The notes beneath the pieces are model-generated. The model did not search any database and was not told the DNA's origin. It was given only the letters and a program-made list of their open reading frames with translations. A stretch of DNA of 39,633 nt, from contig PLRJ01000194.1 of assembly GCA_003163855.1 (NCBI GenBank), forward strand, positions 79,197 to 118,829, in the 5' to 3' direction. Shown one piece after another: positions 3,655-37,202 of this stretch (position 1 is its first letter; each line of letters opens with the position of its first letter). Origin of the DNA: Bryobacterales bacterium (lineage in GTDB: Bacteria > Acidobacteriota > Terriglobia > Bryobacterales > Bryobacteraceae). The position numbers were made by a program, and so were the translations under genes.

Positions 3655-5130
3655 CTACCCTTGCAACACCGGAACCTCAACCGCCTTGGCGGCCGCGGGC
3701 AGTATAACTTCAAACCTCGATCCCTTGCCGCTTTCACTCCTCACCTGAATTTCGCCGCCGTGAGCCTTCACAATACTCGCTACAAAACTCAGTCCCAATC
3801 CTAAGCCCTTTTCCGGATTCGGATCGGGCACGCGATAGAACCGATTGAAAATATGCGGCAGGTGGCTCTCCGGAATTCCCACCCCGCTGTCCTCCACAAT
3901 CAGCCGCACGTTATCTCCGGACACCTCCGCACAAGCTTTCACCCAGCCGCCGCTGGTCGTGTACTTAATCGCGTTCGATAGTAAGTTGGTGACCACGCGT
4001 TCAATCTGGGTGCGATCCACCTCGCAAAGCACCGGGTCCCTCGAAGTCTGCGTCAGCCTGACCTCGCTCGCTTCGGCCGGAATTTGGAATTGATCAACCA
4101 AGTCTTCCACCAGCTTGTTCAAATCAAGCACGCTCTTATTCATGGGTATCTGGCCCGACTCCGATTGCGACAGCAGCAACAGCGCGCGTACCAGGTTCGA
4201 CAACCTTTCGACATCCTGCAGCGCATTCTCAATCGCTTCCTGCAACTGCTCCTTGCGGGTAGCGGTGAACAAGGCCACTTCCAACTGACCCTGGATGGCC
4301 GTCAGCGGCGTACGCAGTTCATGCGATACGTCGGTCGAAAACTGGCGCATCTGATCGAACGAGGCTTTCAAACGGCCGCTCATCTGGTTGAACGAATCAA
4401 TCAAACGGTCGAGTTCATCGTCGGCTCCACGCTTGGGAATCTGCACACCTAAGCGCGACCCGGTAATGGCTTGAGCCGCCTTCTCTACCGACTGCAACGC
4501 GCGCAAGGCGCGGCCGGCCGAATACCAACTGATGACCGTGCAGGCCAACAGCGCGATGGGAATAAAGATCAGGAAGTTTTTGCGGAAATTGCGCAGCACC
4601 GTCCGGTCCTCCAGCAGAGGTCTTCCTTCCACCACGTACCAGCGTCGCCAATGATAAGGATCGACGATCGTACTGCAGATTATCTGGTAGGGAACTTTGT
4701 CTGAACTGGTCACAACCTTGATAATCGGTTCCTTGGTGCGGTTCATCTCCTCAAGATCAGCCTTGATCGTTTTTGGATCCTCCAGAAACGACAAAGAGCG
4801 GTCAACCGAGGATTTATCATTGACGTGGCCCTTATCATCTACCAGCAGAAAGACGTTTTGCAGGCGGGCCACCGTCTGCAGTTCTTCGGGATCGCTGCGA
4901 TCGGCAAACCAATAAGGATTGCCATCCTGCTCATCGAAGTGCAAATAGCCTTTTAACGCGCCCAGTTCATCGCGCAGTATCTGTTCGCTGCCTGTGTTCA
5001 GGACGAAGCGCAACGTGGCCGTGACCGCAAGGCCCGACGACGCCAACACCACCGCCATCAGCAGCATGAAGGTGCTGGCTAAGCGAAACCGCAAAGTACG
5101 AACGACTTTGATCTGGTCGGGCCAGCGCAT
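3655..5130 (-). CDS. Sensor histidine kinase (HAMP-HisKA-HATPase)
   Basis: This transmembrane histidine kinase is the probable partner of the response regulator immediately upstream. It has a membrane helix near residues 18-40, an extracytoplasmic sensor of about 145 residues, a second helix near 184-205, then HAMP, HisKA with the H-box VSHELRTPL (His270) and a HATPase_c domain with N-box NLLSNAIKYT, DSGVGI and GLGLGLS. The frame opens 20 codons earlier at 5190, but those codons overlap the regulator's stop. I chose the ATG at 5130, 28 bases past that stop, although no clear Shine-Dalgarno is visible for either. The layout matches CusS/BaeS/MprB-type kinases that sense envelope or metal stress; the actual signal cannot be read from the sequence. 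Confidence 0.93.
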   Translation of the reverse strand: MRWPDQIKVVRTLRFRLASTFMLLMAVVLASSGLAVTATLRFVLNTGSEQILRDELGALKGYLHFDEQDGNPYWFADRSDPEELQTVARLQNVFLLVDDKGHVNDKSSVDRSLSFLEDPKTIKADLEEMNRTKEPIIKVVTSSDKVPYQIICSTIVDPYHWRRWYVVEGRPLLEDRTVLRNFRKNFLIFIPIALLACTVISWYSAGRALRALQSVEKAAQAITGSRLGVQIPKRGADDELDRLIDSFNQMSGRLKASFDQMRQFSTDVSHELRTPLTAIQGQLEVALFTATRKEQLQEAIENALQDVERLSNLVRALLLLSQSESGQIPMNKSVLDLNKLVEDLVDQFQIPAEASEVRLTQTSRDPVLCEVDRTQIERVVTNLLSNAIKYTTSGGWVKACAEVSGDNVRLIVEDSGVGIPESHLPHIFNRFYRVPDPNPEKGLGLGLSFVASIVKAHGGEIQVRSESGKGSRFEVILPAAAKAVEVPVLQG

Positions 5131-5158
5131 GCTTATTTGTTTATCACGGCTGTGGTCT

Positions 5159-5869
5159 TCAGGCGGTTCCGGCGTCCACGCCCGAAGCATAGGAATGCAT
5201 CTCGGGAATGTCGAGCATATAGCCGATGCCGCGCACGGTGTGAATCATCTTGGTGACGAACTTGTCGTCAATCTTGCTGCGCAGATGGCGGATGTAAACG
5301 TCCACGATGTTGGTCAGCCCGTCGTAATCCATGTCCCAGACATGTTCGACAATCATGGTGCGGCTTAACGGACGCCCACGATTGCGCATCATGTATTCGA
5401 GTATGCTGAACTCCTTGGGCGCCAGTTCGATGCTTTCGTTACTGCGTGTAACCTTGCGGCGAATACAATCGAGCGTCAGATCGCCAACCTGCAGTTTCTC
5501 TGGCGTTGGTTGTCCTCGGCGCAGCAGGACTCGCGCGCGAGCCAGCAGTTCGACGAAGGCAAAAGGCTTAACTAAGTAATCGTCGGCACCCTGTTCAAGC
5601 CCTTTTACACGGTCGTCCACCGAGTCGCGCGCGCTCAAAATCAGTACCGGCGGAATCGTTTTGCGATTCTTGATCTTCTGCAGAACCTGCAGGCCATCCA
5701 CATCCGGCAGACCGAGATCGAGAATCACAAGATCGTATTCCGTCGCGTGGACTCGTTCAATGGCATCGTTGCCCGTATGGGCAAAATCCACCGCATAGCC
5801 GGCACTCTGCAAACCGCGGGTTAGGAAATCCGCAATCCGTTTTTCATCTTCCACCACCAGCAGACGCAT
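5159..5869 (-). CDS. OmpR-family response regulator
   Basis: This DNA-binding response regulator of 236 residues has a receiver domain followed by a winged-helix trans_reg_C domain. The receiver has the acidic pair Glu7-Asp8, phosphoacceptor Asp51, Ser79 and Lys101 (in LVKPF). The output domain shows the recognition-helix region typical of OmpR/PhoB, with the VDVYIRHLRSKID stretch and the VRGIGYML wing. It is the first gene of a pair with the kinase downstream. Because the receiver is complete and the kinase has a matching HisKA domain, they are very likely cognate. Regulated genes are unknown; the adjacent envelope genes at 5959-8161 are possible but unproven targets. Confidence 0.95.
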   Translation of the reverse strand: MRLLVVEDEKRIADFLTRGLQSAGYAVDFAHTGNDAIERVHATEYDLVILDLGLPDVDGLQVLQKIKNRKTIPPVLILSARDSVDDRVKGLEQGADDYLVKPFAFVELLARARVLLRRGQPTPEKLQVGDLTLDCIRRKVTRSNESIELAPKEFSILEYMMRNRGRPLSRTMIVEHVWDMDYDGLTNIVDVYIRHLRSKIDDKFVTKMIHTVRGIGYMLDIPEMHSYASGVDAGTA

Positions 5870-31570: not shown

Positions 31571-33559
31571 ATGAATGAAGTTGCGGCTGATAGCGCGAAG
31601 TACGATCACACCAGGTTGCAGGCCAGCATTGTTGAGGCCACCAGTGACGTCGTCGTAGCTTTGGACAGCAGCATGAACATACGATACTGTAACCCGGCCG
31701 CCGAGCAACTTTACGGGGTACGGTTGCAGGACGTCGCCGGCAAGCCACTGACGGCCATGCATGGTTATGCCTGGATTCATCCGGACGACGAACAGCGGTG
31801 CCTTAGTGACTTGGCAAGACATGGCAGTTGGAGGGGCGAGTACATCCATATCCTCAACAGCGGTTACCAGCTTGTGGTCGAATCCACCGTCAACATGCTG
31901 ACTCCGGAGACAGGTGGCGGAATGGTGGCGGTCATCCGTGATGTCACCCAAACAAAGAGACTCGAAGCTAAGGCTCGGAAGCGGTCGGAAGAACTGACGC
32001 GAGCCAATGAAGATCTATTGCACTTTGCCTATGCCGTCAGTCACGATTTGCAGACGCCTCTGCGAAACATCGTGAGCTTCGTGCAGTTGCTGTCTGCGAA
32101 ATGCAGGCAAAGTCTGGACGGACAATTGAACGAGCTTATCGGCTTCACTGTAGAAGCCGCCAAACGCATGAGCCTAATGCTTGACGACCTCCTGCGATTT
32201 GCCCAGGCTGCAGGCGAAAAAGCCGATATCACTGAAGACGTGAAGCTGGAGGATGCGCTGTCAGCCGCCCTGGAAGTTTTACAGAGCGCGGTAGAGGAAA
32301 GCCATGCGGTTATTACTCACGATGCCCTTCCGGAGGTCCACTTCGAGAAGGGGCAGATGGTCCAGCTACTCCAGAACCTGATTGGCAATTCTCTTAAGTA
32401 CAGCAGGCCCGGCACAGCACCCCGCGTTCATATAACATCGACCCGCTCAGGACAAGAGTGGCTGGTAACCGTGCGCGACAACGGGATTGGCTTCGATAGT
32501 CAATATTCGGAGCGCATCTTTGGCGTGTTTAAGCGGTTGCACGACAAAGAAGTCGCCGGAACAGGACTTGGGCTAACCATTTGCAAGAGAATCGTGGAGC
32601 GGCGCGGAGGAAGGATCTGGGCCGATGCGGAACCAGGTAAAGGAGCCGCCTTCCACTTTACGATACCGGACCTGGAGCAACAGATACAGGGTGCGCCGGC
32701 AATGACGTGGGATGAAATGCGCTCCTTTCTGGTTCAGAGGTCCTTTCAGCCCAGCCACATTGGCGAGGTCTCGAAAGCGATCGATCTTGCTCCGGCCATT
32801 TTGAGAGAGCCGGACGGCACTATCATGTTTTGGACGCAAGGAGCAAAACGGCTCTTTGGGTTCGATGAGGCTGAAGCGTTAGGGAAACAACTATCTGTGC
32901 TATTGCGCAAGGAGCTGTCAGTTTCGCGCGATGCCGAAGAATCCGCTCTGGCGCGTGACGGGGAATGGAAAGGAGAAATGAAGGCATACCGAAGCGACAA
33001 CAGTGTTGTCTGGCTGGCAGTTCATGAAGTTCTCTATCGCGATGGTAATGGCCGGCCCAAATCGGTAGTTGAGGTCTATAGCGATATCACGCCATTAAAA
33101 CAAGCGGAGGCTGCCCTGATGCACAGTATCGAGCAGCGAGATTTGGCCTTGAGTGCCGCCCAGTTGGGTGTTTGGCGCTGGGATCAGCGGACTGGTGCCG
33201 TGGAATGGTCGCCGACTTTGGAAAGGATGCTAGGAATGGCGCCCGGGTCGTTCGAGGGCACATTTGAGGCTTTTCAAGAGCGGCTTCACCCTGACGACAG
33301 GCGTCCACTTGATGAGCAAATTGAGCGGGCTTTCGCGGCGGCTGCGGATTATCACATCGAGAACCGCTTGCGCCACGTGAACGGCAAGTACGTCTGGGTG
33401 AGAGGTCAGGGTGGAGTCATTCTCGATGAGGAAAAGCGCAAGATAGGTTTAGTCGGCGTTGTGTGGGATATAAGCGAACGCAAGCAGCGAGAGAACGAAC
33501 CCACTGCGCGCGTTGAACCTGGTCAGCCTGAGATGCCTTCCAACAGAGCAGACCTCTAA
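31571..33559 (+). CDS. PAS-HisKA-HATPase-PAS-PAS histidine kinase
   Basis: This soluble kinase of 662 residues starts with a PAS domain (about 16-128), followed by a phytochrome-like HisKA (VSHDLQTPLRNI, His158) and a HATPase domain (N-box Asn273, DNGIGF 303-308, GTGLGL 330-335, ending near 370). Two more PAS units follow, at about 395-515 and 520-645, each ending in a PAC-like stretch (VVEVYSDITPLKQAE; GLVGVVWDISERK). No second kinase core follows. There is no transmembrane segment. An AAAGG about 8 bases before the ATG supports the start. Such HisKA types often pair with CheY-like regulators; two are in the window (9265, 36735). Confidence 0.92.
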   Translation: MNEVAADSAKYDHTRLQASIVEATSDVVVALDSSMNIRYCNPAAEQLYGVRLQDVAGKPLTAMHGYAWIHPDDEQRCLSDLARHGSWRGEYIHILNSGYQLVVESTVNMLTPETGGGMVAVIRDVTQTKRLEAKARKRSEELTRANEDLLHFAYAVSHDLQTPLRNIVSFVQLLSAKCRQSLDGQLNELIGFTVEAAKRMSLMLDDLLRFAQAAGEKADITEDVKLEDALSAALEVLQSAVEESHAVITHDALPEVHFEKGQMVQLLQNLIGNSLKYSRPGTAPRVHITSTRSGQEWLVTVRDNGIGFDSQYSERIFGVFKRLHDKEVAGTGLGLTICKRIVERRGGRIWADAEPGKGAAFHFTIPDLEQQIQGAPAMTWDEMRSFLVQRSFQPSHIGEVSKAIDLAPAILREPDGTIMFWTQGAKRLFGFDEAEALGKQLSVLLRKELSVSRDAEESALARDGEWKGEMKAYRSDNSVVWLAVHEVLYRDGNGRPKSVVEVYSDITPLKQAEAALMHSIEQRDLALSAAQLGVWRWDQRTGAVEWSPTLERMLGMAPGSFEGTFEAFQERLHPDDRRPLDEQIERAFAAAADYHIENRLRHVNGKYVWVRGQGGVILDEEKRKIGLVGVVWDISERKQRENEPTARVEPGQPEMPSNRADL

Positions 33560-35398: not shown

Positions 35399-36532
35399 AT
35401 GACTTCCCGCCCCTTTCTATCCGCACTTGCCCTGACCGGCCTTTTGGCGCTTCCTTTCTTCATTCCAGCCATCAGCGCCCAGGATCCTACTCCTGCTCCC
35501 TCGCAAAATGGCGAGACAGTGGCGAAGCCAAAAAAGAAGCCCGACGAGCCACCACCGCCCGATCAGCAGAGTATCCCCTCCGAGTTTAAGAAAGCCAAGG
35601 AACCCTCCGGCGACAACCCTACCTACCGTTCGACAGCCACCACCGTTACCGTAGATGTTTCTGTGCTGGACGATCACAATCACTTCATCCCCAGGATTCC
35701 TCAGGCGAACTTCCGCGTGCTGGAGGATGGCGTCCCGCAGGAGATTTCGCAGTTCGGTCAGGGGGAAGCGCCCATGACCATTTGCATGGTCATTGAATTC
35801 AGCGGCCGCTTCCAAGCCTATTGGAGCCGCGGCTGGTACGAAACAAGACAGGCTTCTTACGGCTTCCTGCAAACCTTAAAACCCGATGACGCCATAGCCG
35901 TTGTCGCCTACGATCTGCGCCCGACCATTCTTTCCGATTTTTCCACCGACAAGCGCGGCGCCGAAGAAGCCATGTCTCGTTTAACTATTCCCGGCTTCAG
36001 TGAATCGAACGTCTTCGACGCCCTTACCGACATGGCCAGCCGTATGGAAGCCATTGAGGGCCGCAAAGCCATTTTGTTGCTTGGCACCGGCCTCGATACT
36101 TTTAGCAAGATTACTTTCGACAAAGCACGCAAGTCTTTGCAGGAATCGGGCGTTCCCATCTACACCATCAGCACGTTGCAGATTGCGCGCATGATGGCGG
36201 AATCTCGCGGCGCCATGGACATGGACTTCCTGCAGGCTGACAACGAAATGCGCACCTTCTCCAAAGAAACCGGCGGTCTTAGTTTCTTTCCGCGCTTTCC
36301 CGGCGAATATCCCGACATCTTCCGCCAGATTGAGAACGCACTGCGCGACCAGTACTCGCTTGCCTATCACCCCACCAACGTCGCCAAGGATGGAAAATTC
36401 CGCCGCATCAAAGTCGAGCTTGTTCAAACGAATTCCACCGAGCCGCTGCGCATGGTAAACGAAAAAGGGAAACCGTTTAAATATCAGGTCATCGCTAAGG
36501 CCGGTTACAAAGCTCCGCGCGAAGTGGAATAG
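35399..36532 (+). CDS. Secreted VWFA-related Acidobacterial domain protein
   Basis: This exported protein of 377 residues has a signal peptide (cleavage near ISA-QD, residue 27) and a proline/lysine-rich linker (about 30-75). It then shows the VWFA-related pattern typical of Acidobacteriota: TVTVDVSVLDDHNHFI, NFRVLEDGVPQEISQFGQGEAPMTICMVIEFSG, and later GRKAILLLGTGLDTFSKI, and EIRNALRDQYSLAYHP-like ENALRDQYSLAYHPTN. The usual DxSxS metal site reads EFSGR, so the MIDAS is changed. An AAAGGTG about 9 bases before the ATG supports the start. The role is unknown; copies are highly amplified in the phylum. Confidence 0.9.
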   Translation: MTSRPFLSALALTGLLALPFFIPAISAQDPTPAPSQNGETVAKPKKKPDEPPPPDQQSIPSEFKKAKEPSGDNPTYRSTATTVTVDVSVLDDHNHFIPRIPQANFRVLEDGVPQEISQFGQGEAPMTICMVIEFSGRFQAYWSRGWYETRQASYGFLQTLKPDDAIAVVAYDLRPTILSDFSTDKRGAEEAMSRLTIPGFSESNVFDALTDMASRMEAIEGRKAILLLGTGLDTFSKITFDKARKSLQESGVPIYTISTLQIARMMAESRGAMDMDFLQADNEMRTFSKETGGLSFFPRFPGEYPDIFRQIENALRDQYSLAYHPTNVAKDGKFRRIKVELVQTNSTEPLRMVNEKGKPFKYQVIAKAGYKAPREVE

Positions 36533-36734: not shown

Positions 36735-37202
36735 ATGCGATCTGTCTCTCCTCTCCGTGCTTCTTCCCAGGCCTTGATTCTTATGGTCGATGACAATCGC
36801 GATGGTGTTATCGCGCGCCGTTCTGTCCTTGAGGAACTTGGTTACACGGTCATCTCCGCAGCTTGTGGCGGCGATGCGCTCAAGCTTATGGACGAACATG
36901 ACTTCGACCTTGTCGTAACCGACTTCAGAATGGAGCCTATGGATGGCCTTGAGCTTATCAAGGCCCTGCGCGGCCGCGATTTCGTCAAGCCCATCATCCT
37001 GCTGAGCGGCTTTGCCGAGGCGCTGGGCTTGCGTGCGGATGCCATTGGCGCCGATGCTGTGGTGCAGAAGAGTGCCAATGAAGTGGCTAACCTGCTGCGC
37101 CACACCAAACGGCTGTTGAACACGCCGAAGAAGCCCGCTGCTTCTCAAGTGGGAAGTGATGGAAAGCCGACACGCGCCCGCGGTAACAGCTCAGGATCGT
37201 AA
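36735..37202 (+). CDS. Receiver-only response regulator
   Basis: The 155-residue product is one receiver domain with a short basic tail. Asp19/Asp20 (VDDN), phosphoacceptor Asp63 (VVTDFRMEPMDG), Ser91 (LLSGF) and Lys112 (VVQKSA) are all present. There is no output domain, so it probably acts through protein contacts or relays a phosphate. The tail after about 130 (TPKKPAASQVGSDGKPTR) is disordered. The start ATG at 36735 has no clear ribosome binding site. The nearest histidine kinase is the PAS kinase at 31571, but no close linkage proves a pair. Confidence 0.9.
   Translation: MRSVSPLRASSQALILMVDDNRDGVIARRSVLEELGYTVISAACGGDALKLMDEHDFDLVVTDFRMEPMDGLELIKALRGRDFVKPIILLSGFAEALGLRADAIGADAVVQKSANEVANLLRHTKRLLNTPKKPAASQVGSDGKPTRARGNSSGS

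Follow-up and report, generated by a model that had tools for sequence, protein, structure and literature searches.

Sensor domains of histidine kinases usually precede the kinase core, and in soluble PAS kinases a helix typically links the driving sensor to HisKA. Of the characterised layouts that we found, the one nearest to the gene described here is that of the TodS-like kinases (TodS, TmoS and StyS), with TodS being the one useful double-module kinase returned by our literature search. The accessible part of PMC4861429 describes TodS as a soluble kinase with two supradomains, each made of a PAS domain and a kinase, and the TodS-like layout as a receiver between two PAS-HK supradomains with no transmembrane region. 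According to the same excerpt, deletion of a short dimerisation stretch in the inner PAS2 of TodS gave higher basal activity with weak agonists. An inner PAS domain that looks silent can thus matter. The accessible part of an archaeal census (PMC5847659) yielded nothing on trailing PAS domains, and our search, which reached few subscription journals, found no published account of the double-kinase family described below.

The gene lies in a stretch of 39,633 nucleotides (the window, meaning the whole stretch analysed) and encodes a protein with one PAS domain ahead of its kinase core and two behind it. Three long relatives resemble TodS in having two kinase modules with PAS domains between them, but in contrast to TodS no receiver was listed by Pfam in these relatives (E up to 1e-5) or in the window protein (11 families, E up to 1). 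Like the TodS-like kinases, the window protein lacks a transmembrane segment, its highest 19-residue Kyte-Doolittle mean of 0.91 being too low for a membrane helix. However, it has a single core, and neither the two supradomains nor the receiver of that layout.

Results

Domain architecture of the window kinase

The gene (31571..33559, forward strand, as are all features given in this paragraph) is a single open frame of 662 amino acids encoding a soluble histidine kinase with the Pfam order PAS1-HisKA-HATPase-PAS-A-PAS-B. The N-terminal sensor PAS1 (residues 18-132; 31622..31966), delimited by Pfam and per-domain BLAST, is followed by HisKA (residues 151-213; 32021..32209), in which H158, an invariant alignment column, is the likely phospho-acceptor. 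HATPase_c (residues 262-367; 32354..32671) has intact ATP-binding motifs, as judged from Pfam and invariant columns. A linker (residues 372-402; 32684..32776) with 37% identity to the same-genus relative G007 leads to PAS-A (residues 403-516; 32777..33118) and PAS-B (residues 517-643; 33119..33499), both placed by Pfam, per-domain matches and rate counts. The frame closes with a 19-residue tail and the stop codon (33500..33559), which is 5% identical to G007 and marks the point where similarity to the longer relatives stops. The Pfam ranges themselves are 31-127, 408-505 and 544-631 for the three PAS domains (the best of three PAS models), with one HisKA stretch at 151-213 and one HATPase_c stretch at 262-367. 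With no fused receiver in the Pfam results, the protein is not a hybrid histidine kinase. The first-pass annotation had described this unusual order, with no receiver, second core or membrane segment, and the order is real.

Residues H158, N269, N273, D303, G305, G307, G330, G332 and G334 are invariant across the five aligned family members, and the protein has the HisKA and HATPase_c domains, acceptor histidine and ATP motifs of a HisKA-type kinase. As the catalytic residues are intact, it is likely to be an active autokinase. Among solved structures, the core is similar to a histidine kinase (8f71), to bacteriophytochromes and to further HisKA kinases, and we take it to be of the common soluble PAS-HisKA-HATPase type (Cph1-like). 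Single-sequence structure prediction gave a mean pLDDT of 36.4, too low for a usable model. A second histidine kinase with the order HAMP-HisKA-HATPase, distantly similar to the gene under study, lies elsewhere in the window (3655-5190, reverse strand).

Rarity of trailing PAS domains in the same genome

Purpose-built profiles were used to scan 69 stretches of the same genome, comprising 868 frames of at least 100 residues; among the matches listed, 77 frames, a few of them short, had a core match at E < 1e-3. Among these listed matches, the window gene alone (1/77) carries a PAS domain behind its last core. Tails of at least 90 residues were seen in 36 of the 77, and the other 35 tails gave no PAS match and by eye were mostly receiver-like. 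PAS domains ahead of the core were seen in at least 27 of the 77 frames and two cores in at least three, both figures being lower bounds with many fetched stretches starting near the core. Three double-core frames of this genome, C102:2578-7215, C117:21145-25017 and C28:26641-29958 (G000), resemble the long relatives in that a single frame encodes two HisKA-HATPase cores flanking PAS domains. Their first cores are distant from the window core, with 23-26% identity to it, and group tightly in a clade of their own (100/100).

Relatives with one and two kinase cores

The family is known from five members: the window protein, G007 from the same genus, and G491, G492 and G185, which belong to three other genera of the same family. 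The last three are long double-core forms with frames of 2070–2578 residues (G185, 2070-residue frame; G492, 2087 residues from the ATG; G491, 2578-residue frame) and the layout PAS...-HK1-PAS-A-PAS-B-...-PAS...-HK2. In Pfam, all three have two HATPase stretches, compared with one each in the window protein and G007. HisKA was called twice in G492 and in G491 and once in G185, where a profile scan placed the second core at 1836-2053. The second core is terminal in every long protein. Between PAS-B and HK2 the long forms have a GAF or GAF-like stretch and then further PAS domains; Pfam calls the GAF in G185, G492 and G007; at E <= 1e-5 it gives none for G491, although by eye that protein has a comparable stretch. 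G007 (1365-residue frame) has HK1, PAS-A and PAS-B, continues with the GAF and a further three PAS domains and then stops, with a single HATPase and no HK2 remnant in the following 2.9 kb. The frame ends are therefore nested, the window frame ending after PAS-B and G007 after the third PAS behind GAF. The window protein has HK1, PAS-A and PAS-B in the family order, and lacks the GAF or GAF-like stretch, the further PAS domains and the second HisKA-HATPase core; it is a shortened relative of the G185/G492/G491 double-core family rather than a full member.

Matches at E <= 1e-60 were found in 25 of 60 near relatives (own genome included), and only those of the own genome and G007 cover the PAS pair; within the genus, two of 17 genomes (own included) give a match of this kind, at E <= 1e-72. 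Across the family, with five candidates scored per genome, nine of 237 genomes match at E <= 1e-74, and the match extends beyond residue 500 in five of the 237, own included. An even sample of the class, with three candidates scored per genome, gave four matches in 399 at E <= 1e-80, two of which (own and G185) reach into the PAS pair. A search of a phylum sample with the family alignment at E <= 1e-110, with three scored per genome, returned the window's own genome alone (1/396), although that sample may not have included every family member. A scan of genome contigs added L016, a 1446-residue frame with by eye one terminal core, and L017, a core match only.

The window frame aligns in one piece with G007 (59%, residues 13-644), G492 (48%, 127-642) and G185 (47%, 113-641). 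The alignment with G491 (45%, 94-531) has one extra PAS inside, between PAS-A and PAS-B. Colinearity with G007, G492 and G185, interrupted in G491 only by the extra domain, rules out a frameshifted fusion of two genes, a check that had been asked of the frame. PAS-A corresponds to the PAS directly behind core 1 in the four longer relatives and PAS-B to the next conserved PAS, and identities to the colinear domains of G007, G492, G185 and G491 are 54-62% for the core, 49-62% for PAS-A and 34-56% for PAS-B. PAS1 has a strong match only to the second PAS of G007 (67% by per-domain BLAST and 70% in the other comparison, the latter making it the best-conserved domain against G007); its other match is one PAS of its own genome at 23%. 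In the comparison with G007, every domain is better conserved at codon positions 1 and 2 than at position 3, and the HATPase-PAS-A linker is the least conserved internal stretch.

Phylogeny of the kinase cores

A tree was built from 84 kinase cores (five HK1, three HK2, G514 and 75 from the window's own genome, with weaker or shorter own-genome matches omitted). The five HK1 cores form one clade (support 100/91), branching as (G185,(G492,(G491,(window,G007)))), with inner forks of 100/64 for the window protein and G007, 97/74 with G491 and 94/54 with G492. The HK2 cores sit in a separate fork (100/75) alongside three own-genome cores. The short forms thus appear to nest among the long ones, with mixed support for the inner forks; the bootstrap had not converged, and the placement is good but not final. 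Neighbouring genes, compared by eye, differ between species, and the locus itself is therefore not comparable.

Search for the missing second half

Six-frame searches downstream of the gene with the C-terminal parts of the four relatives, and with the window core and the three HK2 regions, found no remnant; the best match (E 0.010) is on the reverse strand under a gene at 35399-36532 and the rest have E of 0.4 or more. An adjacent HisKA fragment, which the first-pass annotation had named as a sign of a lost kinase, did not turn up in these searches, and the loss is visible solely by comparison with relatives. Upstream, no remnant of the extra N-terminal PAS of G007 was found (best E 1.8).

A detached second half was sought in the same genome, but none of five matches (E <= 1e-60) covers residues 1-583 of the query (the GAF and following PAS), a region over which G007 matches 2-567 at 46%. 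The nearest candidate, C190, is 48% identical over residues 991-1286 of the 1292-residue query; it was rejected, its core grouping with C102 and C79 and not with HK2. Of its PAS domains, two have 45-46% matches to PAS domains of G491, in one case to the PAS before HK2, a further one matches C102 of the same genome at 43%, and the remainder give a weak match or none. This multi-PAS kinase frame (G000:C190:2-3889), which resembles the second half of a double kinase, is cut by the contig start and may be part of a longer gene. The genome is assembled in 253 contigs (89.33% complete, 5.66% contaminated), and as it is 89% complete the other half could sit in a gap. The gene itself is well inside a contig of 170,046 bases.

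Constraint on the PAS pair

Against G007, PAS-A and PAS-B are 65-81% identical at codon positions 1 and 2 and 35-36% at position 3, which argues for protein-level constraint during much of the time since the split; much of this constraint may predate the loss. We then counted changes specific to either protein using G492, G185 and G491 as outgroups, which share history and are not independent. In PAS-A, 20, 22 and 24 changes are confined to the window protein, compared with 6, 6 and 5 in G007 (p 0.009, 0.004 and 0.0005). The corresponding counts do not differ for the core (21, 26 and 27 against 21, 18 and 20) or for PAS-B (10, 12 and 15 against 9, 9 and 11), and G007, also without HK2, shows no acceleration. 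Direct tests give weak evidence for a difference between PAS-A and the core (Fisher p 0.041, 0.124 and 0.026, in the same outgroup order) and no significant difference between PAS-A and PAS-B (p 0.116, 0.129 and 0.073). The three long forms share 54 invariant PAS-A columns, of which nine are lost in the window protein alone, two in G007 alone and five in both; the figures are eight, four and eight for 105 core columns, and four, two and two for 33 PAS-B columns. These data fit relaxed or changed constraint on PAS-A in the window protein, though they do not amount to proof.

Discussion

Judging from sequence comparison, the window gene is probably a C-terminally shortened descendant of a soluble double-core, multi-PAS histidine kinase. 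The ancestor would have had the layout (variable PAS)-HK1-PAS-A-PAS-B-GAF-(PAS)n-HK2, and with the loss of everything behind PAS-B, HK1 would have kept its own front PAS together with the two sensors that had stood first in the lost second kinase. The odd domain order is thus best read as the front part of a longer double kinase that lost its second half. This agrees with the earlier suggestion of a fused, truncated second kinase, as the PAS pair opens the inter-core sensor array in three other genera and the window protein lacks the rest. The simplest reading of the direction of change is loss, through one or two shortenings within the window's genus.

The opposite direction, in which a single-core kinase with trailing PAS domains was ancestral and GAF-PAS-HK2 was added behind it in the long forms, draws on a family of only five members and on modestly supported inner forks in the core tree. 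We consider it improbable: the short forms are nested within the long ones, and the GAF and three PAS domains of G007 match the middle of the long forms, so that stepwise additions would be needed, one of them placing a GAF and PAS array onto G007 without a core. Even less probable is that an assembly or sequencing error conceals a true gene running on to a second core. A genome in 253 contigs with 89.33% completeness and 5.66% contamination would be open to such errors, but the stop lies deep within a 170-kb contig, no convincing GAF, PAS or HK2 piece lies downstream in any frame, and G007 likewise lacks HK2 yet stops elsewhere.

Whatever its origin, the PAS pair could have been retained as a functional unit that controls the kinase from its C-terminal side, perhaps by forming dimers and holding the ATPase domain in check. 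Both PAS domains can still be recognised and have kept their reading frame; identity is 65-81% at codon positions 1 and 2 and 35-36% at position 3, PAS-B is not accelerated, and in TodS tuning is affected by the dimerisation stretch of its inner PAS2 (PMC4861429, accessible part). This is possible but doubtful, given that nine of the 54 PAS-A columns invariant in the long forms are lost in the window protein alone and that no internal stretch is less conserved than the linker joining the pair to the core. A bolder and rather unlikely version is that HK1 took over the orphaned pair, with the fast-changing PAS-A docking on its own ATPase domain and signalling backwards; if true, this would be a kinase with sensors at both ends.

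Under the favoured reading of C-terminal shortening, the protein probably functions much as other soluble PAS kinases do, carrying its inherited extra domains along. PAS1 would signal through a helical linker into HisKA, and the core would autophosphorylate on H158 and hand the phosphate on to a receiver that is a separate protein. The long forms have the PAS pair at the head of the array leading to HK2; in the window protein, with no output module behind them, PAS-A and PAS-B would provide contact or dimerisation surfaces at most, or be on their way out. A stand-alone receiver (Response_reg) lies 3.2 kb downstream in the window (36735-37202), with other frames between, and is a possible partner of the kinase. 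In G491 the double kinase frame overlaps at its end with another stand-alone receiver (Response_reg; L060:1206-1643), which is a candidate for the output of the second core.

The case seems to be one of gene shortening and not a new kind of kinase. It provides a three-step series in one bacterial family, from long double kinase through an intermediate to a short form, and raises the questions of how a kinase behaves once the output behind half its sensors is gone and whether trailing PAS domains decay or find a new use. It also cautions that relatives should be checked before a trailing PAS is taken as a designed feature. In G492, an alpha/beta hydrolase gene (Abhydrolase_6; L059:4993-5808) overlaps the start of the long kinase, which begins at 5805, in an operon-like arrangement reminiscent of the RsbQ-PAS pairing, and the first PAS of this kinase may read a hydrolase-borne signal.
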